A stretch of 51,461 nt of DNA from the NCBI GenBank assembly GCA_030038475.1, contig JASHOU010000065.1:1-51461 (forward strand), written 5' to 3'. Numbering within the stretch: the first letter of the stretch is position 1; every line of letters starts with the position of its first letter. Positions 2,684 to 32,283 of this stretch are shown here, piece after piece. Source of the DNA: Terriglobales bacterium. Its GTDB lineage: Bacteria > Acidobacteriota > Terriglobia > Terriglobales > Acidobacteriaceae. A program made the translations under genes and the position numbers. Below the pieces are notes generated by a model. It searched no databases, had not been told where the DNA came from, and worked only from the letters and a program-made list of their open reading frames with translations.

Positions 2684-4510
2684 ATGTCGCGCATCCAATC
2701 GATCTTTATAGTGGCGCTGCTGCTGACCGCGCTCGTCGCTCTCGGGCCCGCGGCCCAAGCAACCACGATTGAAGTAACTATTGCAGGAGCCTCGACGGTT
2801 TGGCAGTCACTAGCGCTGGCTGCTTATAAGGAAGCCGGTTCCGGTGGTGGACACTGGACCAGCGCTTCCAACGTCATCAACCTCACCGATTCTCGCGTTT
2901 CACCGGTGAACGTCGATCCAGGCACGATCTGGATTGTGTGGAACTCCACCGCCACAAAAGTCTGGTCGTTTACCAAAGTCGACTCAGTGGTCGGTGAACG
3001 CTGCTACTTTGCGCAACCGCAGTGCAGCGTCAACGCCACCCTGGCGAATCTGTCGGGTAACGGCGCCAATCAAATCTCCCCCGCGCTGTGGGGGGATGGC
3101 TCTTCGGACACGGCCTTGCCGTCTGGCGTCCAATCGATATTTACCACCGGAACATCGGTCACGGTAGCAGCCTCGGTGCTGCGTCCCGAAGACGCGCAGT
3201 TCGTTGTCTGCCGCGCCAACTCTCAACTGGGCGCGGGTTCCTACGGCGGCGCCGCCAGCGACGGCCTTGACGGCCTCGGTTACAACTCCAACTGGGCCGC
3301 TGGGGTTTGTCCGGCCTCCGGCAGCGCTGCAAGCGCCTATGTGGGAAGTCCGATCAAGAGTGGCTACCCCGGCAGCACCGGGCAGGCCAACGTTCTCTCC
3401 TTCAACATCAAGGGTACGGACCCCATCAGCGGCACAAAGATTCCTGCCTATACCGTGGTGAATCTGGGCGCCTCGCCTCTCATCTTCATATTTGAGCGCA
3501 GCAACGGCGAACTGGGTCAGTTGACCAATGCTAGTCCCACGCAATTGGCGCAGGTGTTCTCCGGGACCAACTGCGACGCCGATGCATTCGGGCTGGCCCC
3601 GGCGGGAATCAACGTGTTCCAGCAGGAACCGATCGCCGGAGTCGCGCAGCTAGGGGAAAACTCCGCGTTCCGGCGTCCAACGGTCTACACAGGGACGGGT
3701 GGGGGCGCTGTCCTCGGTCCCAGCCAGGAAGCCAATGTGGGCACCAATAATCCGTTGGCGGGACAACCGGGAACCTGCAACAGCAGCAACGGCCTGGGCG
3801 CGCGCTATCGCGCCATTGGCGCCAGTGAAGAGGTGAAGTCCGTACAGAACTCCGGATCGAAATTCGGCGGTATTGACGGCATCGGCTACGCCACCTTCAG
3901 CTATGGAAACGTCAGCACGATCGCGAATAGCGCTAACTATGGCTACATCACGGTGAACGGCGTGGATCCGATCTTTGCCAGCTACGGGCCGCAGGCCTCA
4001 ACCGGTTCCGGTTACGATCCCGGACAACCGCCCAACGCCGCGAATCCAACCGCTCCGGCCGGCACCTTGCCCGGCGCCGCCGACCTGCCCGCCTCGTGCA
4101 GCAATGCATTTCCCTGCCCGGAGAACGATATTTGGGCGGGTGGACTCTCGTTCCCGAACCTCCGCAACGGCACCTATCCGCTGTGGGCGGTTCTCAACCT
4201 GGTGGCCAACGGCACTCCCCTGACCGCCGCCAAAAACCTGGCCAAAATCGCGCAGGAGTTCGTCGTCAGTTCCGTTCCCGACTTCGTTCCCTTCGCGAAG
4301 ACGACTGCGGGCGGAGTCAGCGATCCGGGCCTGACGTTGGTCGACTCGCACTACCAGCAATATGACGGAGCTGGCAATCTAATCGGTGCAGCTCCTGTGA
4401 ACAGTGGAACCGACGAAGCGGGCGGCGATGTCGGCGGCACCGTGCTCTCGTCAACCTCGAAAGCCACACAGCAGGTGCAGGGTGTTCAGGGTCTACAGGT
4501 TAGACCCTAA
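2684..4510 (+). CDS. secreted PstS-like substrate-binding-domain protein, copy 2
   Basis: Also 608 residues and about 90% identical by eye to the protein at 495. The signal peptide is identical and the last ~150 residues nearly so; most differences cluster around residues 220-235 and 285-340. That patchwork (identical ends, divergent centre) suggests gene conversion or selection on a central surface. The first mature residues TTIEVTIAGASTV resemble the phosphate-loop region of PstS proteins, but function is inferred only from fold resemblance. It has its own promoter, leader and terminator, so the copies are separate transcription units. Confidence 0.8.
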   Translation: MSRIQSIFIVALLLTALVALGPAAQATTIEVTIAGASTVWQSLALAAYKEAGSGGGHWTSASNVINLTDSRVSPVNVDPGTIWIVWNSTATKVWSFTKVDSVVGERCYFAQPQCSVNATLANLSGNGANQISPALWGDGSSDTALPSGVQSIFTTGTSVTVAASVLRPEDAQFVVCRANSQLGAGSYGGAASDGLDGLGYNSNWAAGVCPASGSAASAYVGSPIKSGYPGSTGQANVLSFNIKGTDPISGTKIPAYTVVNLGASPLIFIFERSNGELGQLTNASPTQLAQVFSGTNCDADAFGLAPAGINVFQQEPIAGVAQLGENSAFRRPTVYTGTGGGAVLGPSQEANVGTNNPLAGQPGTCNSSNGLGARYRAIGASEEVKSVQNSGSKFGGIDGIGYATFSYGNVSTIANSANYGYITVNGVDPIFASYGPQASTGSGYDPGQPPNAANPTAPAGTLPGAADLPASCSNAFPCPENDIWAGGLSFPNLRNGTYPLWAVLNLVANGTPLTAAKNLAKIAQEFVVSSVPDFVPFAKTTAGGVSDPGLTLVDSHYQQYDGAGNLIGAAPVNSGTDEAGGDVGGTVLSSTSKATQQVQGVQGLQVRP

Positions 4511-4585: not shown

Positions 4586-4746
4586 TCCTGCGCCGGATTC
4601 ACCGACGATCCGGCCGCGATCCTTGAGCCCCAATGCCCCTTGAGCGATGTCACACAATATTAATGTTCACAGGATATTCTTTAACTGGAGGTCGCAGGTC
4701 CCCGTTTACGCCGCCGACCCCATATTCCAGATGTGAGAAAGTTACG

Positions 4747-5790
4747 ATGCTCAAAGTTCTATCCTTCGGATTTCTGCGCCGGCTTGCGCTCGGCATTTCC
4801 ATCTCGATCATCCTGCTGCTCGCTGCCCAAACCGGCGCCGCGCAGCTAGAGCACGCATCGCCGCCCATCGCTAATCCTGCCGACACTCGTTTTCGCGACG
4901 TGCAGGAGGACTGGACCTCGCCCGCATTGACCAGCAGCCATCTGGTGGCAGTTCATCCGCTTCGCGCTTTCGTCGACGATAAGTCCACCTACACAGTCGA
5001 ACTCTTGCAGGTGCAGTGGCGCTGGGGAGATCCGCTCGACCTTTATGTTATGCGGCCAAAGGGCGCAAAAAAACCTCCGGTCATCCTCTATCTTTACGGC
5101 TATCCCACCGACACCGATATCTTTCGCCGTGATGCCTACGAAGATCTGGTCACGAAGAATGGCGTTGCCGCGGTCGGCTTCGTTTCCGCCCTCACCGGAC
5201 ATCGCTATCATGACCGTCCGATGAAGGAATGGTTCTTGAGCGAATTACAGGAGTCGCTGGCAAAATCGGCGCATGACGTGCAGATGGTGCTCAATTATCT
5301 TGACTCGCGCGGCGATCTCGACATGAATCGTGTGGGCATGTTCACCCAAGGATCGGGAGCCAGCATCGCCATCCTCACTTCGGCCGTCGATCCCCGCATC
5401 AAGGTGCTGGAAGCCCTCGATCCATGGGGAGACTGGCCGACCTGGCTGGCAACCTCGCGTTTCGTGCCCGAGAACGAGCGTCCTGACTATGTAAAGCCGG
5501 ACTTCCTGAAAAAAGCCGCGGTGCTGGAGCCGCTCGATTGGCTGCCTAAAATTCAAGCGAAGAAATTTCGCCTGGACGATGAATTGTTCGATTCCGTCAC
5601 CCCAAAAACCGCCCAGGAAAAGCTGCGCGCAGCCGTTCCCGCCGGCTCTACGGTAGAACTCTATAAAAACATGCAAGAGTTCAGTGCGGCCTTCGCAGAG
5701 GGCAAGAACTTGCAATGGATTCAGCACGAGTTGCAGGCGCTGCCTGACACGGTGCAACCGAACACCACTGTTGCTCAACAGGCGAAATAG
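4747..5790 (+). CDS. secreted alpha/beta-hydrolase-like protein
   Basis: 347 residues from ATG 4747; the frame is open upstream to 4633, but only this start gives a proper signal peptide (LRRLALGISISIILLLAA, then QTGAAQ). Export to the periplasm or outside is predicted. The core looks like an alpha/beta hydrolase: a PPVILYLYGYPTD strand and oxyanion-type loop, a long mid region, then RVGMFTQGSGASIAIL where the nucleophile elbow belongs. The usual G-x-S-x-G reads T-Q-G-S-G, placing Gly where Ser is expected and Ser one residue later, so activity is uncertain. A late catalytic His is not obvious. Substrate is unknown. It stands alone between the PstS-like pair and the response regulator. Confidence 0.65.
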   Translation: MLKVLSFGFLRRLALGISISIILLLAAQTGAAQLEHASPPIANPADTRFRDVQEDWTSPALTSSHLVAVHPLRAFVDDKSTYTVELLQVQWRWGDPLDLYVMRPKGAKKPPVILYLYGYPTDTDIFRRDAYEDLVTKNGVAAVGFVSALTGHRYHDRPMKEWFLSELQESLAKSAHDVQMVLNYLDSRGDLDMNRVGMFTQGSGASIAILTSAVDPRIKVLEALDPWGDWPTWLATSRFVPENERPDYVKPDFLKKAAVLEPLDWLPKIQAKKFRLDDELFDSVTPKTAQEKLRAAVPAGSTVELYKNMQEFSAAFAEGKNLQWIQHELQALPDTVQPNTTVAQQAK

Positions 5791-5800
5791 CGTCCAGGAA

Positions 5801-5854
5801 TTAACCCTCCTTTAACACATCCGCAACACTCCTGAAACACATTGTCTCTAGTGT
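5801..5854 (+). promoter_or_regulatory. Pho-box-like operator/promoter of the response regulator
   Basis: Four hexamers lie at an exact 11-bp period: TTAACC (5801), TTAACA (5812), GCAACA (5823) and GAAACA (5834). Nine bases after the last comes TAGTGT (5849-5854) as a -10-like element; there is no -35. PhoB/PhoP-family regulators bind direct repeats of this spacing. The same layout precedes the porin (28724) and pstS (32283, minus strand), so the gene below probably regulates itself. Confidence 0.7.
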
Positions 5855-5927: not shown

Positions 5928-6653
5928 ATGGAATCTTTCGAGTCGGCAGACAAATCGCATTATTCCGATCTGATCTACGTTGTCGAAGACGATCCGGATG
6001 TTTCTCACCTGATCGAACACAATCTGCGCACCGCAGGCTATGACGTCTCCACATTTTATTCGGGCGCGCCCGTGGTTCCTACGGCCGCGCGACGGCAGCC
6101 TGCTCTGTTTCTTCTCGATATCATGTTGCCTGGAATCAGCGGCTTCGATCTCTGCCGCCAGATCCGGCAGCACGAACAACTTTCCAAGACGCCGGTCATT
6201 TTTCTTTCCGCCAAAACGCAGGAACCCGACCGCCTGCAAGCCTTCGACGTGGGCGGCGACGGATACATCACCAAGCCCTTCAGCCCGCGCGAGCTGATTG
6301 CGCGCATCCGCAACGTGCTCCGCGTGTTGCCGGAAACGCCCATGCACGAGACGATCGAACTGGGCGACCTGGAAATCGACATCGCTTCCATGACCGTGCG
6401 CGTCGGCGGCAAAGCGGTGCCGACTACGGTGCGCGAGTTTCGCCTGCTCGAGTACCTCGCGCGCCATCGCGGGCGTGTTTTTACTCGCGATCAGTTACTC
6501 GACGCCGTGTGGAAAGAAGGATCGTTTGTGACTCCGCGCTCGATCGATGTGTTCGTGCGCCGTCTGCGCGAGAAGATCGAACGCGACCCGCGCCATCCCC
6601 GCTATTTGAAGACCCTGCGCGGAATTGGGTACCGGTTCGAAGCGGGAAGGTAG
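5928..6653 (+). CDS. PhoB-like OmpR-family response regulator
   Basis: 241 residues. The receiver domain (about 15-130) has the acidic pocket Glu20-Asp21-Asp22, phospho-acceptor Asp64 in FLLDIMLPG, switch Ser94 and Lys116 in YITKPFSPRELIARI, a stretch very close to PhoB. The C-terminal winged helix (about 145-238) contains REFRLLEYLARHRGRVFTRDQLLDAVW and the recognition-helix motif RSIDVFVRRLREKI. It would bind DNA direct repeats as a phosphorylated dimer. No histidine kinase gene adjoins it, so its partner is elsewhere. The four-repeat operator upstream and matching ones at the porin and pstS genes make a phosphate-starvation role likely; this is inference from sites, not proof. No strong ribosome-binding site is visible. 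Confidence 0.85.
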   Translation: MESFESADKSHYSDLIYVVEDDPDVSHLIEHNLRTAGYDVSTFYSGAPVVPTAARRQPALFLLDIMLPGISGFDLCRQIRQHEQLSKTPVIFLSAKTQEPDRLQAFDVGGDGYITKPFSPRELIARIRNVLRVLPETPMHETIELGDLEIDIASMTVRVGGKAVPTTVREFRLLEYLARHRGRVFTRDQLLDAVWKEGSFVTPRSIDVFVRRLREKIERDPRHPRYLKTLRGIGYRFEAGR

Positions 6654-24123: not shown

Positions 24124-25653
24124 ATGCCCATGTTTGCCGCCATCGACATCGGATCGAATTCGGTTCGGCTGAAGATTGCGCGCCTGCAAGCGGGGAGGCT
24201 GAAAGAAATACGCGAAGATCGGGAGGTCACGCGATTAGGCGAGGGCGTTTTCAACAATGGTCTGCTTTCTCCGGAGGCGATGACACACACGGTGCAGGTG
24301 CTGCGGCGGTTCAATCGCGCGATTCAGGAATGTGGCGCAGAATCGGTGAGGGTGGTGGCAACTTCGGCGCTGCGCGATGCCCGCAATTCACGCATATTTC
24401 TGGAGTGGGTACGGTCGACGACGGGCTGGACGATTGAAATTGTCTCCGGACTGGAAGAAGCGCGTCTCATTCATTTGGGCATTGTCTCCGCGAGCCGACT
24501 GAGGGAGCGCAGCATTCTGCTGGTGGACTTGGGCGGCGGCAGTTGCGAGCTCACGCTTTCGCGCGATGGCCAGTTGCGCGATTCGGTGAGCCTGCCGCTC
24601 GGAGCCGTGCGTCTGACCGGTGAATTCCTGAAACACGATCCGCCGCGCAAGAGCGAACTGAAGCGTCTGCGCGAGTTTGTAACGCGGGAGATTTTGCGCA
24701 TTCAGAATCGGGTGAAGCTGGCGCGCGTGGGCGCGGTGATTGCGACCTCAGGTACGGCAGCAGCGCTGGCGGGCATTGCCGAGCACCTGGCGGGTCCGAA
24801 GAAGCGGCCGGCCAACTACGCAACTCGCGCGATGGTGCGGCGAATTGCCAAACAGATCGCACGGCTGACTCTGGAGCAGCGGCAAAAGGTTCCGGGAATC
24901 GGGCCGCGGCGAGCGGAGATTATCTGCGCCGGCGCGGTAGCTTACGCGGAATTGCTGGAGCGATGCCATTTGCCCGGCTTTCGCTACTCGCCGCTTGGCC
25001 TGCGCGACGGCATTCTGGCGCAGATGGCCGCCGACTACGATCGCAGCACGCGATCGGGACGGGCGATTGAATCGGAACGGTGGGAATCGATTAAACGCGC
25101 GGTCGATCATTACCACGTCGATTTGAGTCACGCTTTGCATGTGCGGGACTCGGCGTTGTTTCTGTTTTCTTCGCTGAAATCGGTGCACCAGTTGCCGGTG
25201 GAGTACCGGGAGTGGCTTTCGGCAGCGGCCATGCTGTTTGAAGTGGGCGACTACGTGAACCGCAACGGACATCATCGTCACTCGTACTACATCATCGCGA
25301 ACTCGGAGATTCTGGGCTACACGACGCAGCAGCGGCGGATCATCGGATCGATTGCGCGTTATCTGGGCAAGTCACGGCCGGCGCCGGGAGACGGTCCGAT
25401 GAATTCATTGAGCCCGGAGGAGCAAGAGAATGTAACGAAAGCGTCGATGCTGCTGCGCATTGCGCGCGCTTTGAATATGGGCCGCAGCCAGTCGGTGGGC
25501 AAAGTTACGGTTTCGGCGCGCAGTGGAAAAGTCGCGATGATACTCATTCCGCGGGGAAAAGCCAGCGTAGACCTGGAAGTGTGGTCGATTGAGAATATCC
25601 GCGACTACTTCCGCGAAGTCTTCGGGCGCGAACTTTCGGTGGCGGCGGCGTAA
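24124..25653 (+). CDS. ppx: exopolyphosphatase / guanosine pentaphosphate phosphatase family protein
   Basis: 509 residues. The N-terminal ASKHA-fold domain begins FAAIDIGSNSVRLKIARL (phosphate-1 motif); SILLVDLGGGSCELTLS is the phosphate-2 loop; VRVVATSALRDARN and ATSGTAAALAGIAEHL are further family motifs. From ~320 an HD-type helical domain follows (DHYHVDLSHALHVRDSALFLF, RNGHHRHSYYII), as in longer Ppx/GppA proteins. It would hydrolyse polyphosphate ends or pppGpp in the cytosol. The genes for SixA and polyphosphate kinase lie immediately downstream on the opposite strand, a common polyphosphate arrangement. ATG 24124 or ATG 24130 could be used. Its last 49 bases overlap sixA head-on at the 3' ends. 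Confidence 0.92.
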   Translation: MPMFAAIDIGSNSVRLKIARLQAGRLKEIREDREVTRLGEGVFNNGLLSPEAMTHTVQVLRRFNRAIQECGAESVRVVATSALRDARNSRIFLEWVRSTTGWTIEIVSGLEEARLIHLGIVSASRLRERSILLVDLGGGSCELTLSRDGQLRDSVSLPLGAVRLTGEFLKHDPPRKSELKRLREFVTREILRIQNRVKLARVGAVIATSGTAAALAGIAEHLAGPKKRPANYATRAMVRRIAKQIARLTLEQRQKVPGIGPRRAEIICAGAVAYAELLERCHLPGFRYSPLGLRDGILAQMAADYDRSTRSGRAIESERWESIKRAVDHYHVDLSHALHVRDSALFLFSSLKSVHQLPVEYREWLSAAAMLFEVGDYVNRNGHHRHSYYIIANSEILGYTTQQRRIIGSIARYLGKSRPAPGDGPMNSLSPEEQENVTKASMLLRIARALNMGRSQSVGKVTVSARSGKVAMILIPRGKASVDLEVWSIENIRDYFREVFGRELSVAAA

Positions 25654-26135
25654 AGCGTGCGCAGGATGCGGGGCGTGATGCACCAGCTGAGCGAACCGGC
25701 GCTGCGCCGCATCTCAACTTTGGCCACGGCGCCTTTTTTCAGCTCAATGACGGCTTCGCTGCCGTTGCCGCTGATGACCCGGCCGAGAAATTCGCTCAGG
25801 TTGGGATTATGCCCCACCAATAGAATCGCGTCCTGGCGCGCGTATTTTTCCAGCATCTTTTGAAATTCGGCGAAGCCGGCTTGCGGGCGCAGCGCGCTTT
25901 CGGTGAGGAGTTTGCCTTCGTGACCCATCTCATTGCCCACCAGAGCCGCAGTCTGCGTGGATCGTTTTAGCGGGCTGGAGAGGATGGTTTCCACCTGCAC
26001 ACCAAGGGCGGACAGGGCGCGGCCGATGTATCCGCATTGCTCGATGCCGTCTTTATCGAGGCCGCGCTTTTCGTCTTTTTTGGCGCTGGTTAAGGTTTGC
26101 CCGGCGCTGGCGTGTCGTAAAAAATAGACAAACAT
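25605..26135 (-). CDS. sixA: SixA-type phosphohistidine phosphatase
   Basis: 176 residues of the histidine-phosphatase superfamily. The RHG-type motif is YFLRHASAG (catalytic His near residue 8), the partner Arg lies in SSPLKRSTQTA, and the second His is in ILLVGHNPNLSEFLG. SixA removes phosphate from phosphohistidine in signalling or phosphotransfer proteins. It lies 23 bases after ppk on the same strand and is probably co-transcribed with it. The C-terminal ~25 residues (RTLYAAATESSRPKTSRK region) are encoded within sequence that also codes for the end of ppx on the other strand and are unlikely to be part of the core fold. Confidence 0.88.
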   Translation of the reverse strand: MFVYFLRHASAGQTLTSAKKDEKRGLDKDGIEQCGYIGRALSALGVQVETILSSPLKRSTQTAALVGNEMGHEGKLLTESALRPQAGFAEFQKMLEKYARQDAILLVGHNPNLSEFLGRVISGNGSEAVIELKKGAVAKVEMRRSAGSLSWCITPRILRTLYAAATESSRPKTSRK

Positions 26136-26158
26136 TTCGAGTGTTTATTCCCTTCCGG

Positions 26159-28330
26159 TCAAGATCGGCTGAGCGAAGTGCGATAGTTGGAAACTCGAGC
26201 GACGCGGCGAAGCGCAACAACCGGAATATCTTCCGGAGTCTTGGCGCCTTCGGCTACGCCAATCAGAAAATCCTGAGCGCTGAAGGCAGCGTCGCCGCGA
26301 GGAGGCTTGCGGCTGCGACCGCGGGGCGATTGCCAGGAGCGCAGGTAGCGGCCATCCTTTTGCAGAAACCTCGATTTCACGTTGTCGGCGAGATAGGCGG
26401 CGAGAATCTCGTGGGTAATGCGGTCGCGCAATAAAGGACTTTTCACGGGAAACAGCACTTCCACGCGCTCGTGCAGATTGCGATTCATCCAGTCGGCGCT
26501 GCCCACGTAGATTTCCGATTCGCCGCCGTTTTCGAAATAGTAAATGCGGCTGTGCTCGAGGAAGCGGCCGACAATGCTGCGCACGCGAATGCGGTCGCTG
26601 ATGCCACGAATTCCGGGGCGCAGGGCGCACATGCCGCGCACCAGAAGTTCAATCTCAACACCCGCCTGTGAAGCACGATACAAAGCCTGGATAACATTCT
26701 CTTCGAGAAGCGCATTCATCTTGGCGATGATGCGCGCGGGGCGACCCTGGCGGGCGTGCTCGGCTTCACGCTCAATCATGCCGATGCATTTCTCCGCCAG
26801 ATCGAGCGGCGCCACCAGCAGCGGCCCGTAGCCGGGATTTTCTGCATAGGCGGTGAGGAAGCTGAAAACATCGTGTACGGCGCTGGTGATTTCCGGGTCG
26901 GATGTGAGCAGACTGAGATCGGTATAGATGCGGGCGGTGATGTCGTTGTAATTTCCCGTGCCCAGGTGCGCGTATTGGCGAGTAACGCCATCGGGATCGC
27001 GCCGCACCAGCAGCGAGAGCTTGCAGTGCGTTTTCAAACCGACCAGCCCGTGGAAGACCTGCACGCCGGCGTCTTCCAGATCGCGCGCCCAGCGGATGTT
27101 GGAGGCTTCGTCGAAGCGGGCTTTCAATTCCACGACGGCAGTGACTTCCTTGTGCGCAGCGGCGGTCATTAACGCGGGAACAATCAGAGTGTGCTCGCTG
27201 GTGCGGTACAGAGTCTGCTTGATGGAGAGCACGCGTTCATCTTCGGCGGCGGATTGGATGAAGGACAAAACGGCGTCGTAAGAATCGTAGGGATGATGCA
27301 GGAGAATGTCGTGACGCCGCAGTTCTTCGAACAGATCGTGGGATTTGGCGGTCAGGCGCAATTCGCGCGGAACAAAGCTGTGAAATTTCAACTCCGGCCG
27401 CGCGGTTGCGTCGTAGATCTGGAACAGCCGGGAAAGATTGACCGGGCCGTTGACGGGGAAAATCTGCCAGGGATCGATCTCGAAGACCGTGCCCAGGCGT
27501 TCGATGATTTCCGGATCGGCGCTGGATTCGATCTCCATGCGCACCGCGTCTCCTTTGCGGCGGTTGTGCAATTCGGCACGTACCGATTCCAATAGATTGC
27601 GCGATTCTTCCTCCTGCAGGTAGAGGTTGCTGTTGCGGGTGACGCGGAAGGCGGCCGAAGAAACGATATCGTAGCCCTTATACATTCGCGTGGCGTGATG
27701 GACGACAAGATCGGCGAGAAAAATAAAATCGGTGGTTCCCTGGGAGGGCAAATGGACCAGGCGCGGAAGCGCGCGTGGAACGGTGACCACGCCGGTGTAG
27801 GTAAACGAGGAGCGGCGGCGGCGGCGCAGCAGCAGCGCTACGCAGGTTGCCTTGTTGATGACGCGAGGAAAGGGGTGCGCCGGGTCGACGGTGACCGGAG
27901 TCAGCAGGGGATCGAGTTCGCGCGCGCAGTAGTCGTCGGCGAAGGCCCGCGCTTCCTCATCGAGCTGGTCAATTCCGAGGACGCGAATTCCGTTCTCCGC
28001 CAATTCCGGGAGCAGGCGCTCGTTCCAGCAGGCGTATTGTCCTTCGACAAATTCGTGGCTGATATCCCTGATGAGATCCCGCTCCTCCATCATGGTCATG
28101 CCGTCAGCCAAGGTGGAGTTGAGACCGTCTTCCAGTTGCTGCAGAAGTCCGCCGACCCGAACCTCGAAAAATTCGTCCAGGTTACTGGCGGAGATGGCGA
28201 GAAATTTTACGCGTTCGAGCAGCGGGTTGCGGAGGTCATCCGCCTCTTCGAGCACACGCCAATTAAATCTCAGCCACGAAGCTTCGCGGTTGAATAACGG
28301 CGCGCGACTGCTCGGAGGTGGTCCAGCCAT
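26159..28330 (-). CDS. ppk1: polyphosphate kinase 1
   Basis: 723 residues, the normal size of PPK1, which makes polyphosphate from ATP (reversibly) at the inner face of the membrane. The N domain begins LFNREASWLRFNWRVLEEA; the head domain and two phospholipase-D-like C domains follow. The autophosphorylated histidine is His455 in AHLGTGNYNDITARIYTDLSLL; the second catalytic histidine is His593 in VGRFLEHSRIYYF. The NRNLHERVEVLFPV block near the end is also conserved. With ppx opposite, sixA downstream and Pho-controlled uptake genes to the right, this forms a phosphate-storage cluster. I see no Pho-type repeat in its own upstream region. Confidence 0.96.
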   Translation of the reverse strand: MAGPPPSSRAPLFNREASWLRFNWRVLEEADDLRNPLLERVKFLAISASNLDEFFEVRVGGLLQQLEDGLNSTLADGMTMMEERDLIRDISHEFVEGQYACWNERLLPELAENGIRVLGIDQLDEEARAFADDYCARELDPLLTPVTVDPAHPFPRVINKATCVALLLRRRRRSSFTYTGVVTVPRALPRLVHLPSQGTTDFIFLADLVVHHATRMYKGYDIVSSAAFRVTRNSNLYLQEEESRNLLESVRAELHNRRKGDAVRMEIESSADPEIIERLGTVFEIDPWQIFPVNGPVNLSRLFQIYDATARPELKFHSFVPRELRLTAKSHDLFEELRRHDILLHHPYDSYDAVLSFIQSAAEDERVLSIKQTLYRTSEHTLIVPALMTAAAHKEVTAVVELKARFDEASNIRWARDLEDAGVQVFHGLVGLKTHCKLSLLVRRDPDGVTRQYAHLGTGNYNDITARIYTDLSLLTSDPEITSAVHDVFSFLTAYAENPGYGPLLVAPLDLAEKCIGMIEREAEHARQGRPARIIAKMNALLEENVIQALYRASQAGVEIELLVRGMCALRPGIRGISDRIRVRSIVGRFLEHSRIYYFENGGESEIYVGSADWMNRNLHERVEVLFPVKSPLLRDRITHEILAAYLADNVKSRFLQKDGRYLRSWQSPRGRSRKPPRGDAAFSAQDFLIGVAEGAKTPEDIPVVALRRVARVSNYRTSLSRS

Positions 28331-28723: not shown

Positions 28724-28777
28724 TTCATCAGAAATTCACCGGTTTGTAACATTCTTTTAACATTTTGCCGCTACAAA
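28724..28777 (+). promoter_or_regulatory. Pho-box-like operator/promoter of the porin gene
   Basis: Hexamers TTCATC (28724), TTCACC (28735), GTAACA (28746) and TTAACA (28757) recur every 11 bp, then TACAAA (28772-28777) stands nine bases after the last, as a -10 element. The first 15 bases (TTCATCAGAAATTCAC core) are identical to the pstS operator. The leader to the porin start would be about 190 bases. Confidence 0.75.
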
Positions 28778-28974: not shown

Positions 28975-30888
28975 GTGTATTTTATGAAACCAATCAAGCA
29001 GCGGTTAATAACGGTTCTGGCGCTCGCGGGGCTATCCGCCGGCGCCTGGGCACAGACCTCAACCCCTCCGGCTACAACCACGAACAGTAGCGCGACAGCC
29101 ACGGCGCCGGCACAGCCGGCGATCACGGCGGCTGACGTGCAGTCGCTGAAAGACGCTTTGGCCGCGCAGCAAGAGCAGATTCGACTGCTCAATCAGCAGC
29201 TTCAGGCAGCGCAACTGAATTGGCGACAGGCGCAGGCCGCGGCAGACGCCGCCGAAAGCGAAGCCGCCGCAGCCCAAGCCCAGGTCAACCTGGAACAGGA
29301 GACAGTCGGTGAATTGAAGACCGATCTCGCCGGTCTGAAAACGGTGAACTTCTCAGGTACGAACCCGACCGGATTGCAAAATGCCGTGTTTTCGATGCAG
29401 GAACCGGCCCAGGCAGGCGAGCAGCCGCAGACCTACAACAAAGAGATGGAGGGTCCGTTGACCATCCACTTCCGAGGCATCAACATTACGCCGGGTGGTT
29501 TCGCCGAAGCGGCCTTCGTGCGGCGTTCGCGAGCTCTCGGGGCTGATCTCCCCACTCCCTTCAACAGCCTGACCATGCCCGGCGCATCGCAGAGTCAGTT
29601 GTCGGAGTTCTTTGGTTCTGCACGGCAATCCCGGCCCACGGTCTATGTTGCCGGCAAGCTGGGGGACGTGGAACTCTCCAGCTACCTCTCAGCCGACTTT
29701 CTCTCTGCCGGTGTCACCTCAACCGCGACGCAAACCAACAGCTATACGTTGCGGCTCCGCCAGGTTTGGGGCCAGGCGAAATTTAACAACGGCTGGAGCA
29801 TCCTCGGCGGCCAGATGTGGAGTCTCGTAACGGAAAACAAGGCCTCCATCGCCCCCAGCGACGATATCGGCAAAACTAACGACGCACGGCCAGGAACCAT
29901 CGACCCGGGGTACACCGTTGGTTTCAGCTTCGCGCGTCAGTATGGGCTTCGCCTAACCAAGCAATTCGGAGATAAGGTCGCGGTGGCGTTTGCCATCGAA
30001 AACCCGCAAGCTACGGTCTCCACGCACGAAAACGCGAATAATTACCTGCTGGTTCAGCCCGGAGCAAACAACAGCTACAACAGTCTTTCCACCTACGGCT
30101 TTAACCCCTCGCCCGATCTCATCGCCAAGATCGCATTCGATCCCGGCTTTGGTCACTACGAGATCTTCGGCTTGGCCGATCGCTTCACCGATCGCATCTT
30201 TCCTTGCGTCGAATTCGCGGCCGGTTCGGCCCTTTGCACGGGCCAACCTGCGGCGACTGGGGCATACAACTATTCGAAGGAAGGCGGCGGGTTTGGCGTC
30301 AATGCGCGCTGGACGTTTGCCGACAAACACATCGTCTTTGGCCTGCACGGCTTTGGCGGCAGCGGCGTCGGCCGTTACGGCGCAGCGCAACTGGCTGATG
30401 TTTCCATCAATGCCGACGGGTCGGTTCACCTGATCAAGAACCTGCAGGGACTGGCCTCGCTCGAATACCACAGCAAGAAACTCGATCTCTACGGCTACGC
30501 TGGCGCAGAGTATGACGCGCGTACCTATAACTTTGATCCGCTGGCGGACAAGGGCGTCGGAGCCAATGTAGGTTACGGCGCGCCAACGTTCAACAATTAC
30601 GGCTGCTACAACGAGGTTGTGCCGGGGACAAGCGGATTGGTATCGGGACCCGTGCCGGGCACGCTTGCGGACTGCACCGCAGACACCCGGGCGGTCATCG
30701 AGGGCACACTCGGCTTCTGGTACAACATTTACAGCGGACCGAGGGGAAGATTCCGCTTCGGTACGCAGTATTCGTACGTGACGCGGCAAACCTGGTCTGG
30801 CGCCAACTCGACGGGCACGCCTGGAGTGGTGTCGCCGGAGGGTCTGGACGGAATGGTGTTTACCTCATTCCGCTACTACTTGCCGTAA
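28975..30888 (+). CDS. outer-membrane porin, DcaP-like, probably phosphate-starvation controlled
   Basis: 637 residues from GTG 28975 (AAGGAG at 28965-28970, ideal spacing); ATG 28984 three codons later is the alternative. Signal peptide QRLITVLALAGLSAGAWAQ. Residues ~45-115 are an Ala/Gln-rich coiled coil (DVQSLKDALAAQQEQIRLLNQ), as in trimeric DcaP/OprP-like porins. The rest is beta-barrel: many alternating strands, e.g. RPTVYVAGKLGDVELSSYLS and YTLRLRQVWGQAKF, ending in FTSFRYYLP with aromatic residues close to the C-terminus. It would let small anions or solutes across the outer membrane. The Pho-type promoter argues for phosphate or phosphorylated compounds, an inference. It is monocistronic and lies next to pstS on the opposite strand. 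Confidence 0.85.
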   Translation: MYFMKPIKQRLITVLALAGLSAGAWAQTSTPPATTTNSSATATAPAQPAITAADVQSLKDALAAQQEQIRLLNQQLQAAQLNWRQAQAAADAAESEAAAAQAQVNLEQETVGELKTDLAGLKTVNFSGTNPTGLQNAVFSMQEPAQAGEQPQTYNKEMEGPLTIHFRGINITPGGFAEAAFVRRSRALGADLPTPFNSLTMPGASQSQLSEFFGSARQSRPTVYVAGKLGDVELSSYLSADFLSAGVTSTATQTNSYTLRLRQVWGQAKFNNGWSILGGQMWSLVTENKASIAPSDDIGKTNDARPGTIDPGYTVGFSFARQYGLRLTKQFGDKVAVAFAIENPQATVSTHENANNYLLVQPGANNSYNSLSTYGFNPSPDLIAKIAFDPGFGHYEIFGLADRFTDRIFPCVEFAAGSALCTGQPAATGAYNYSKEGGGFGVNARWTFADKHIVFGLHGFGGSGVGRYGAAQLADVSINADGSVHLIKNLQGLASLEYHSKKLDLYGYAGAEYDARTYNFDPLADKGVGANVGYGAPTFNNYGCYNEVVPGTSGLVSGPVPGTLADCTADTRAVIEGTLGFWYNIYSGPRGRFRFGTQYSYVTRQTWSGANSTGTPGVVSPEGLDGMVFTSFRYYLP

Positions 30889-31164: not shown

Positions 31165-32187
31165 CTAGTGAACCTGCTTGATGGCGACTTTTACCTTTGC
31201 CACCACGTTTTTGGGAAGCGGGGCGTAACTGAGTTGAGTGGTCATACTCTGGCCGTCGGTGACCATCCAGTTGAGGAAATCGGCGAGGATTTTTCCTTTC
31301 TTCGGATCGCTCGATTGCTCAGGAATCAGGAGCCAGGTGAAGCTGGAAATGGGGTATGCCGCTTTGCCGGGTGGATCGGTAATTGAGACCCGAAAGTCGG
31401 CGGGCATGTCTTTCACCGAGGCTGCCGCTTCGGTCACGCCGTCGAGCGAGGCTTTCACGAAGTTGCCGGCGGAATTCTGGACCGATCCGAAGTCGATTTT
31501 GTTCTCCAAGGCATAGATCAATTCGATGTAGCCGATCGAGCCCTGCAATTGCCTGATCTGGCCGGCAACACCCTCGTTGCCTTTGCCGCCCAAACCTACG
31601 GGCCATTTCGGTGAGGTGCCCTTGCCCACCGTCGATTCCCATTCCTTGCTGACCTTCGAGAGATAGTCGGTGAAGATATAGGTGGTGCCGCTGCCATCGG
31701 AGCGGTGAACCACGATAATGGATGTGTCGGGAAACTTCATGCCGGGATTGGCCTGGGTAATGGCGGGGTCGTTCCATTTCTGAATCTTGCCGAGAAAAAT
31801 TCCCGCCAAAGCCGCGGGAGTGAACTTGATTTCTCCGCTGATACCGGGGACGTTGTACGCGGGGACGACTGCGCCGAGCACAGTAGGAATGTGCAGGATC
31901 TTGACTTTGGATTGCGCCAGTTGTTCATCGGTCATGGGACCATCGCTGGCACCAAAATCGACAGTGCCGTTCAAAACCTGGCGGATGCCGCCGCCGCTGC
32001 CGATCGACTGGTAGTTAATCTGCACGTCGGGATGCAGCTTGTTGTATTCGCTGAACCACTTGGAATACATGGGATAGGGGAAGGTGGCGCCGGCGCCATT
32101 CAGCGTGGTCTGCGCGAAGGCGGGCAGCACGAACCCGGGCAGAACCAATGCCAGACCGGCCAACAACCGCGCGATGCGATGTGTCAC
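31165..32187 (-). CDS. pstS: periplasmic phosphate-binding protein
   Basis: 340 residues, normal PstS size. Start is GTG 32187 with GAGGAGG nine bases upstream; signal peptide HRIARLLAGLALVLPGFVLPAFA. The mature protein opens TTLNGAGATFPYPMYSKWFSEY, the classic PstS start, followed by QSIGSGGGIRQVLNGTVDFGASDGPM and HRSDGSGTTYIFTDYLS, the loops that ligate phosphate, and ends in YPISSFTWLLIP. It captures phosphate in the periplasm for the PstCAB importer. None of pstC, pstA, pstB or phoU is within the window, so the gene is detached from its transporter. A Pho-type operator precedes it; the leader is short, about 40 bases. Confidence 0.95.
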   Translation of the reverse strand: MTHRIARLLAGLALVLPGFVLPAFAQTTLNGAGATFPYPMYSKWFSEYNKLHPDVQINYQSIGSGGGIRQVLNGTVDFGASDGPMTDEQLAQSKVKILHIPTVLGAVVPAYNVPGISGEIKFTPAALAGIFLGKIQKWNDPAITQANPGMKFPDTSIIVVHRSDGSGTTYIFTDYLSKVSKEWESTVGKGTSPKWPVGLGGKGNEGVAGQIRQLQGSIGYIELIYALENKIDFGSVQNSAGNFVKASLDGVTEAAASVKDMPADFRVSITDPPGKAAYPISSFTWLLIPEQSSDPKKGKILADFLNWMVTDGQSMTTQLSYAPLPKNVVAKVKVAIKQVH

Positions 32188-32229: not shown

Positions 32230-32283
32230 GTTGTATGGCCGAAGTATTAAAGGAAAGTTACAGCGGAGTGAATTTCTGATGAA
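32230..32283 (-). promoter_or_regulatory. Pho-box-like operator/promoter of pstS
   Basis: On the minus strand: TTCATC (32283-32278), TTCACT (32272-32267), GTAACT (32261-32256) and TTAATA (32250-32245), each 11 bp apart, then TACAAC (32235-32230) nine bases later as -10. It matches the porin operator in order, spacing and first 15 bases. The divergent GH15 gene starts 150 bases to the right. Confidence 0.8.

Follow-up and report, generated by a model that had tools for sequence, protein, structure and literature searches.

Promoters of Bacillus subtilis carry several repeats of a TTAACA-like unit. Passages of PMC4415409 describe the Pho box of both Escherichia coli PhoB and B. subtilis PhoP as head-to-tail repeats of 11-nucleotide units, and present Myxococcus xanthus PhoP4 as an orphan regulator that takes part in the phosphate response beside several PhoR-PhoP pairs. 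In the parts of PMC1906773 that deal with such elements, the E. coli Pho box lies 10 bp upstream of a -10 element of the form TAN3T/A, and the cyanobacterial SphR boxes (CTTAACCT) consist of at least three tandem repeats, each a TTAAC-type unit that is 8 bp long and followed by a linker of 3 bp; in two genomes such boxes were predicted upstream of sphR itself. For a lineage of Acidobacteriota from soil and peat, no earlier sequence definition of the Pho box appeared in the titles and opening abstract lines that a literature search brought up, though one may exist.

The window, by which the whole stretch of 51,461 nucleotides under analysis is meant, belongs to a soil or peat acidobacterium. 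Judged by its sequence, the element at 5801-5854 is a Pho-type operator and as such a known kind of element; what sets it apart is its position, before a paralogue of PhoB with a changed dimer face and with no kinase recognised nearby.

Architecture of the operator and its counterparts in the window

The features of the promoter are the following.

5801 to 5839, plus strand: four-repeat Pho operator of the phoB2 promoter, its layout read directly, with a comparable site before 34 of 34 PhoB2-type loci
5801-5806 (TTAACC), 5812-5817 (TTAACA), 5823-5828 (GCAACA) and 5834-5839 (GAAACA), plus strand: repeat hexamers in an 11-bp period
5849 to 5854, plus strand: -10-like hexamer TAGTGT, 9 bp past the fourth repeat, the preferred offset, and conserved in orthologues
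5928 to 6653, plus strand: phoB2, response regulator of the OmpR/PhoB family with Pfam domains Response_reg and Trans_reg_C, paralogue of the phoB on contig C33

The first-pass annotation had given the four hexamers, their period and the TAGTGT nine bases further on, and all of its coordinates proved exact. A Pho box is expected to have at least two direct repeats at an 11-bp period, and here there are four. The box sits in a gap of 137 bp between the end of the upstream open reading frame (ORF) at 5790 and the ATG of phoB2 at 5928. The ORF at 4633-5790 was considered as its owner and rejected, as it reads towards the box and stops 10 bp short of it.

Two further sites in the window, together with their neighbourhood, read as follows.

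28724 to 28762, plus strand: second four-repeat Pho operator, in front of the 637-aa ORF (28975), with TACAAA 9 bp after it
32245 to 32283, minus strand: third four-repeat Pho operator, upstream of pstS, with TACAAC 9 bp after it
28975 to 30888, plus strand: 637-aa ORF without Pfam or NCBIfam match
31165 to 32187, minus strand: pstS, phosphate-binding protein (TIGR00975, 395 bits against a cut-off of 205)
26159 to 28330, minus strand: polyphosphate kinase 1, a neighbour, no Pho box found in the search upstream
24124 to 25653, plus strand: Ppx/GppA-family protein, a neighbour, no Pho box found in the search upstream

The matching sites at 28724 (plus) and 32283 (minus), to which attention had been drawn in the same annotation, are real and share the common layout of 4 x 11 bp, one before a gene resembling those of outer-membrane proteins and the other before pstS. 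Near its N-terminus the 637-aa ORF has a short similarity (43% over 67 aa) to a Porin_5 protein encoded behind pstS in a relative, and Porin_5 was found in the relatives' loci L175 and L187; on this slender likeness the ORF might encode a porin. The ppk and ppx genes (24124-28330) adjoin these Pho genes and are without a Pho box in the matrix scan of the window. Further away, at 495-2321 and 2684-4510, stand two tandem, closely similar ORFs of 608 aa without Pfam match, which are about 30% identical to proteins of 630-653 aa encoded near PhoB2 behind Pho-like sites in relatives; the window scan gave no strong site upstream of the tandem pair.

Statistical support

A short AT-rich repeat may arise by chance in an intergenic gap, and the shortness of each repeat is all that favours this explanation of the box. 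When the matrix was built from the sites at 28724 and 32283 only, 4 of 102,844 scored positions reached the score of the 5801 site, that site included. With the matrix of all three, the window sites score 28.5, 31.6 and 28.5, values that are circular, and the maximum in a null of 30 first-order Markov sequences of window length was 16.3. Over the 4.46-Mb genome, a generalised pattern with up to three mismatches gave 7 matches, the reversed control pattern 1; the seven comprise the sites of the window, with 0, 0 and 1 mismatch, and four others with 3 mismatches apiece. A related pattern with up to two mismatches, searched in 61 genomes, gave 85 matches in 34 genomes versus 8 for the reversed control, the 85 being row sums in which a few entries are register shifts of one site. 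Within the 24 genomes of the window's genus, the same search gave 73 matches versus 2. The search patterns were drawn up after the three window sites were known, so that conservation between species is the stronger test. The conservation in relatives described below points to a real control site, and together with the Markov null, the whole-genome search and the 9-bp offset of the -10 hexamer it leaves chance with a vanishingly small probability.

Conservation upstream of phoB2

The regions upstream of 17 PhoB2 orthologues were compared with that of the window. Anchored on the best site and averaged over 17 sequences (the window and 16 others, the divergent L049 being omitted), the information per column amounts to 1.80 bits in the hexamers, 0.87 in the spacers and 1.54 in the -10 hexamer, and to 0.19 and 0.25 bits in the upstream and downstream flanks. 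L049 itself still has a site scoring 30.0, and this orthologue (L049/L135) carries it in a different register and with a poor -10. A second set, whose organisms partly overlap with the first, comprises 45 loci, 34 of PhoB2 type (62-88% identity) and 11 of PhoB1 type (56-61% identity). All 34 PhoB2-type loci have a site within 350 bp, with scores from 18.7 to 38.7, and 15 of them (L136, L137, L216-L228) lie outside the genus that trained the matrix. None of the 11 PhoB1-type loci has a box within 350 bp, their best score being -2.5. In 300 kb of random sequence the score never exceeded 15.

The -10 element has a preferred spacing. Of 84 distinct sites, 41 have TANNNT exactly 9 bp past the last repeat, and no other offset between 3 and 16 bp accounts for more than 4; the second position of the -10 hexamer is A in 77 of 84. 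The 84 sites are mutually related, and the -10 columns are absent from the matrix. The box thus occupies the place preferred by Pho boxes, just upstream of a sigma70-type -10 element.

In L040 and L042 a repeat-like insertion separates the box from the start codon, extending the distance between site and start to 250 and 225 bases versus the usual 95-190 or so, with the box intact. The insertion is palindromic and lies between the phoB2 -10 and the start codon (about 6840-6960 in L040, 6850-6960 in L042), and a 13-base piece of the L040 copy recurs in the window's own genome at L028:9042. Two genomes, G010 and G015, have two PhoB2-type genes each. The second copies are outside the 45-locus set; that of G010 has a site scoring 23.8, and near that of G015 (L182) no site above 11 was seen.

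Genes behind the boxes and extent of the regulon

Downstream genes were identified for part of the 85 matches. Among them are pstS, phoU, phoB2 and genes for porins and phosphoesterases, beside some without recognisable phosphate role; as far as it goes, this outcome favours the first-pass annotation, which had staked its reading on matches being commoner before phosphate genes than elsewhere. As is characteristic of Pho boxes, phosphate-starvation genes follow both in the window (pstS) and at the followed-up matches in relatives. Specifically, sites were found before genes for phosphoesterases (L193, L194, L159), a phosphodiesterase (L151), OprB porins (L188, L191) and PstS (L175); an OprB gene in L185, about 1.3 kb from its site, was left uncounted. 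In G007, sites near PhoB2 precede three genes. One encodes a large outer-membrane beta-barrel protein that carries a carboxypeptidase-regulatory domain, another a protein of 292 aa with an Ig-like domain, and the third a protein of 630 aa (L176) without Pfam match; a phosphate-related domain was not found in the 292-aa and 630-aa proteins. The site in G022 precedes a gene of 481 aa, also without Pfam match.

Boxes also occur in genomes that have no PhoB2-type match. They precede pstS and an OprB porin gene in G020, whose pstS is 82% identical to that of the window, pstS-like genes in G023 (76% complete) and G032, and phoU in G026, G027 and G034; in G058, from another family, the box again stands before a pstS-like gene. 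With cross-species conservation, preferred -10 spacing and phosphate genes downstream in relatives, the designation as Pho-type operator is borne out.

The three sites had been taken to define a small regulon. All three are real; the regulon is probably larger, given weaker candidates before a likely pstC and phoU elsewhere in the genome. At L028:4268, two repeat units, with TAGCCT 9 bp after them, precede a BPD_transp_1 gene, with phoU further downstream; by gene order these are probably pstCAB-phoU, the BPD_transp_1 gene being a likely pstC. A degenerate four-unit site at L027:2637, before phoU of the phoB cluster, scores 10.5, a level reached twice by random sequence in 300 kb. A third site, at G000:C179:1359-1397 (L035), is a weaker Pho-like one (score 17.5) with TAATGT at 9 bp. 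It resembles the G005 site (L159) before a phosphoesterase gene; the 125-aa ORF behind it has no Pfam match.

PhoB2 as a paralogue of canonical PhoB

The gene behind the box had been called PhoB-like, with which its Pfam domains and its best NCBIfam model, TIGR02154 (PhoB), agree. PhoB2 combines a receiver with a winged-helix output domain, the hallmark of the OmpR/PhoB family. It scores 221.9 bits on TIGR02154, below the cut-off of 296.2 for that PhoB equivalog; the canonical PhoB of contig C33 reaches 248.7 bits, likewise below the cut-off. A sequence search of the PDB returned response regulators of the family and was uninformative on the box. On C33 the PhoB-like gene is followed by a gene for a PhoR-like kinase, which scores under the curated PhoR cut-offs, and by phoU. 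The C33 PhoB and PhoB2 are 57% identical, and in a tree of 35 proteins PhoB2 forms one clade (support 100/99) beside canonical PhoB1 (85/82). A canonical phoB stands directly beside a PhoR-like kinase gene or phoU, which holds for the C33 paralogue and not for phoB2; a Pfam scan of 18 ORFs of the window recognised neither a histidine kinase nor PhoU.

A PhoB2-type match is present in 21 of the 24 genomes of the genus, once as a fragment at a contig end, and is absent from G020, G022 and G023, the last of which is only 76% complete. Of 200 genomes drawn from the family, 30 gave a match with an E value of 1e-88 or better, among them G147, G065 and G133, which are PhoB1-type by the 45-locus split.

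The possibility that canonical phoB has the same four-repeat box was examined and rejected: the stretches upstream of it in 20 relatives score 5.1 at best, and none was found close to phoB of the window's own genome. A looser two-unit pattern gave weak candidates before 3 of 21 canonical phoB genes (G002, G030, G000), and a further one was noted by eye in L230 (G065), so short two-unit sites may possibly precede some of these genes. In 21 genomes (L027:5059; L195-L214), the start codon of canonical phoB has TACAAT a few bases ahead of it, with TAGAAT in its place in G030. This -10-like hexamer so close to the start suggests that the canonical message would be leaderless.

Which regulator reads the box

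The gene behind the operator had also been taken for its likely own regulator, and on this point the annotation needs revision. A separate phoB lies beside a PhoR-like kinase gene and phoU, and in relatives that lack PhoB2 equivalent boxes still stand before pstS-like genes and phoU; it is therefore canonical PhoB that probably reads the boxes, phoB2 being a member of the regulon. Canonical PhoB is the most economical candidate as reader, and the gene first called its own regulator is better described as a second PhoB, probably under the control of the first. The recognition helices of PhoB2 (TPRSIDVFVRRLREKIE) and PhoB1 (TPRSVDVYVRRIREKIE) are nearly the same, so that the helix cannot assign a regulator to each box, and PhoB2 would probably bind the same boxes.

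The model proposed here builds on the anatomy of the promoter, its conservation, the preferred spacing, the association with phosphate genes in relatives and the pair of paralogues. Upon phosphate starvation, PhoB, whose gene lies outside the window beside those for the PhoR-like kinase and PhoU, would become phosphorylated and bind the four head-to-tail repeats. Two PhoB dimers would probably occupy them. The fourth repeat would replace the -35 element, 9 bp before the sigma70-type -10 TAGTGT, and bound PhoB would switch phoB2 on. PhoB2 would then probably bind the same boxes, at pstS, at the gene at 28975 and at its own promoter, and serve as a second-tier amplifier or modulator. We infer the binding, the phosphorylation, the direction of regulation and any feedback from these sequence comparisons; as a whole, the reading of 5801-5854 as an activator-dependent phoB2 promoter, switched by PhoB and with PhoB2 in the second tier, is given a probability of about 0.78. 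Autoregulation by PhoB2, as part of such a circuit, is possible.

In its pure form, autoregulation would make PhoB2 the only regulator to bind its own operator and the other boxes of the window, canonical PhoB having other targets. This would agree with the strict tie between the box and PhoB2-type genes (34/34) and with canonical phoB being without a four-repeat box in the 20 relatives (best 5.1). However, it leaves the equivalent boxes before pstS-like and phoU genes of PhoB2-free relatives without their reader, and it is canonical PhoB that has a PhoR-like kinase adjoining, whereas no histidine kinase appeared among the 18 scanned ORFs of the window; pure autoregulation is thus quite improbable.

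Altered receiver of PhoB2

In E. coli PhoB numbering, taken from the alignment, the window protein has Gly at D101 and Val at R122, and keeps R91, D100, E111 and R115. The contacts of the canonical dimer are R91-E111, D101-R115 and D100-R122, pairs taken from passages on VanR and KdpE and carried to PhoB with a shift of 4, which are distinct from the criterion for the OmpR/PhoB family. With Gly at 101 and Val at 122, only one of these three pairs of the alpha4-beta5-alpha5 face is complete. Gly or Ala replaces D101 in 18 of the 34 PhoB2-type proteins, and 16 of the 34 keep Asp. The 18 all belong to the window's genus, where D101 is lost in 18 of 19 PhoB2-type loci (L133 keeps it). Arg122 is missing in 32 of 34, being kept in L136 and L228, and all 11 PhoB1-type proteins retain both residues.

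According to a passage of the VanR paper (PMC8329863), the equivalent pairs make contact in the active dimer and are highly conserved. PMC2586830, in the portion cited, states that all E. coli family members share two charged residues in the middle of the interface, which on our own reading are D101 and R115. The NsrR paper (PMC4773095) reports monomers with reduced DNA binding when the corresponding residues are mutated in PhoB of E. coli and in PhoP of B. subtilis.

It is on this receiver change at D101 and R122 that two readings of the action of PhoB2 are based. Tentatively, and with the odds against it, PhoB2 might be a starvation-induced second-tier PhoB that has lost the standard dimer contacts in this genus and acts without phosphorylation-driven dimerisation or paired with PhoB1, providing gain control of the Pho regulon from behind a four-repeat box that is absent from canonical phoB. 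Alternatively, PhoB2 could compete at Pho boxes or form weak heterodimers with PhoB1 and so exert negative feedback on the Pho response, a reading that agrees with the preferred explanation except for the action of PhoB2 after its synthesis. Such damping would fit the Gly or Ala at D101 in 18 of 34 proteins, the missing Arg122 in 32 of 34 and the monomers and reduced DNA binding that the NsrR passage (PMC4773095) reports for the corresponding mutants, but the window protein keeps R91, D100, E111 and R115, D101 itself is kept in 16 of 34, and sequence alone does not separate an activator from a damper; we regard it as unlikely. If the receiver change matters, the PhoB2 proteins represent natural variation in a dimer interface that mutational work on PhoB and PhoP has examined.

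Comparison with known Pho systems

With these sites the Pho box of a soil and peat lineage of Acidobacteriota can be defined by sequence, and they reveal a Pho regulon whose four-repeat operator belongs to the PhoB paralogue and not to phoB. As far as the cited passages describe the E. coli and B. subtilis Pho box, the present one resembles it in its 11-nucleotide head-to-tail units close to a sigma70-type -10 element. It differs from the E. coli box in its hexamer, which is TTAACA, GCAACA or TTCACC here and not CTGTCAT, in the conserved number of four repeats and in the 9 bp to the -10. With the cyanobacterial SphR boxes, in the part of that work cited above, it shares TTAAC-type tandem repeats and a location before a regulator gene; there, however, the SphR box stands before sphR itself, whereas here the box precedes the paralogue and canonical phoB is without a four-repeat box. 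As an additional PhoP-type regulator, PhoB2 finally resembles PhoP4 of M. xanthus as that protein is portrayed in the cited passage.
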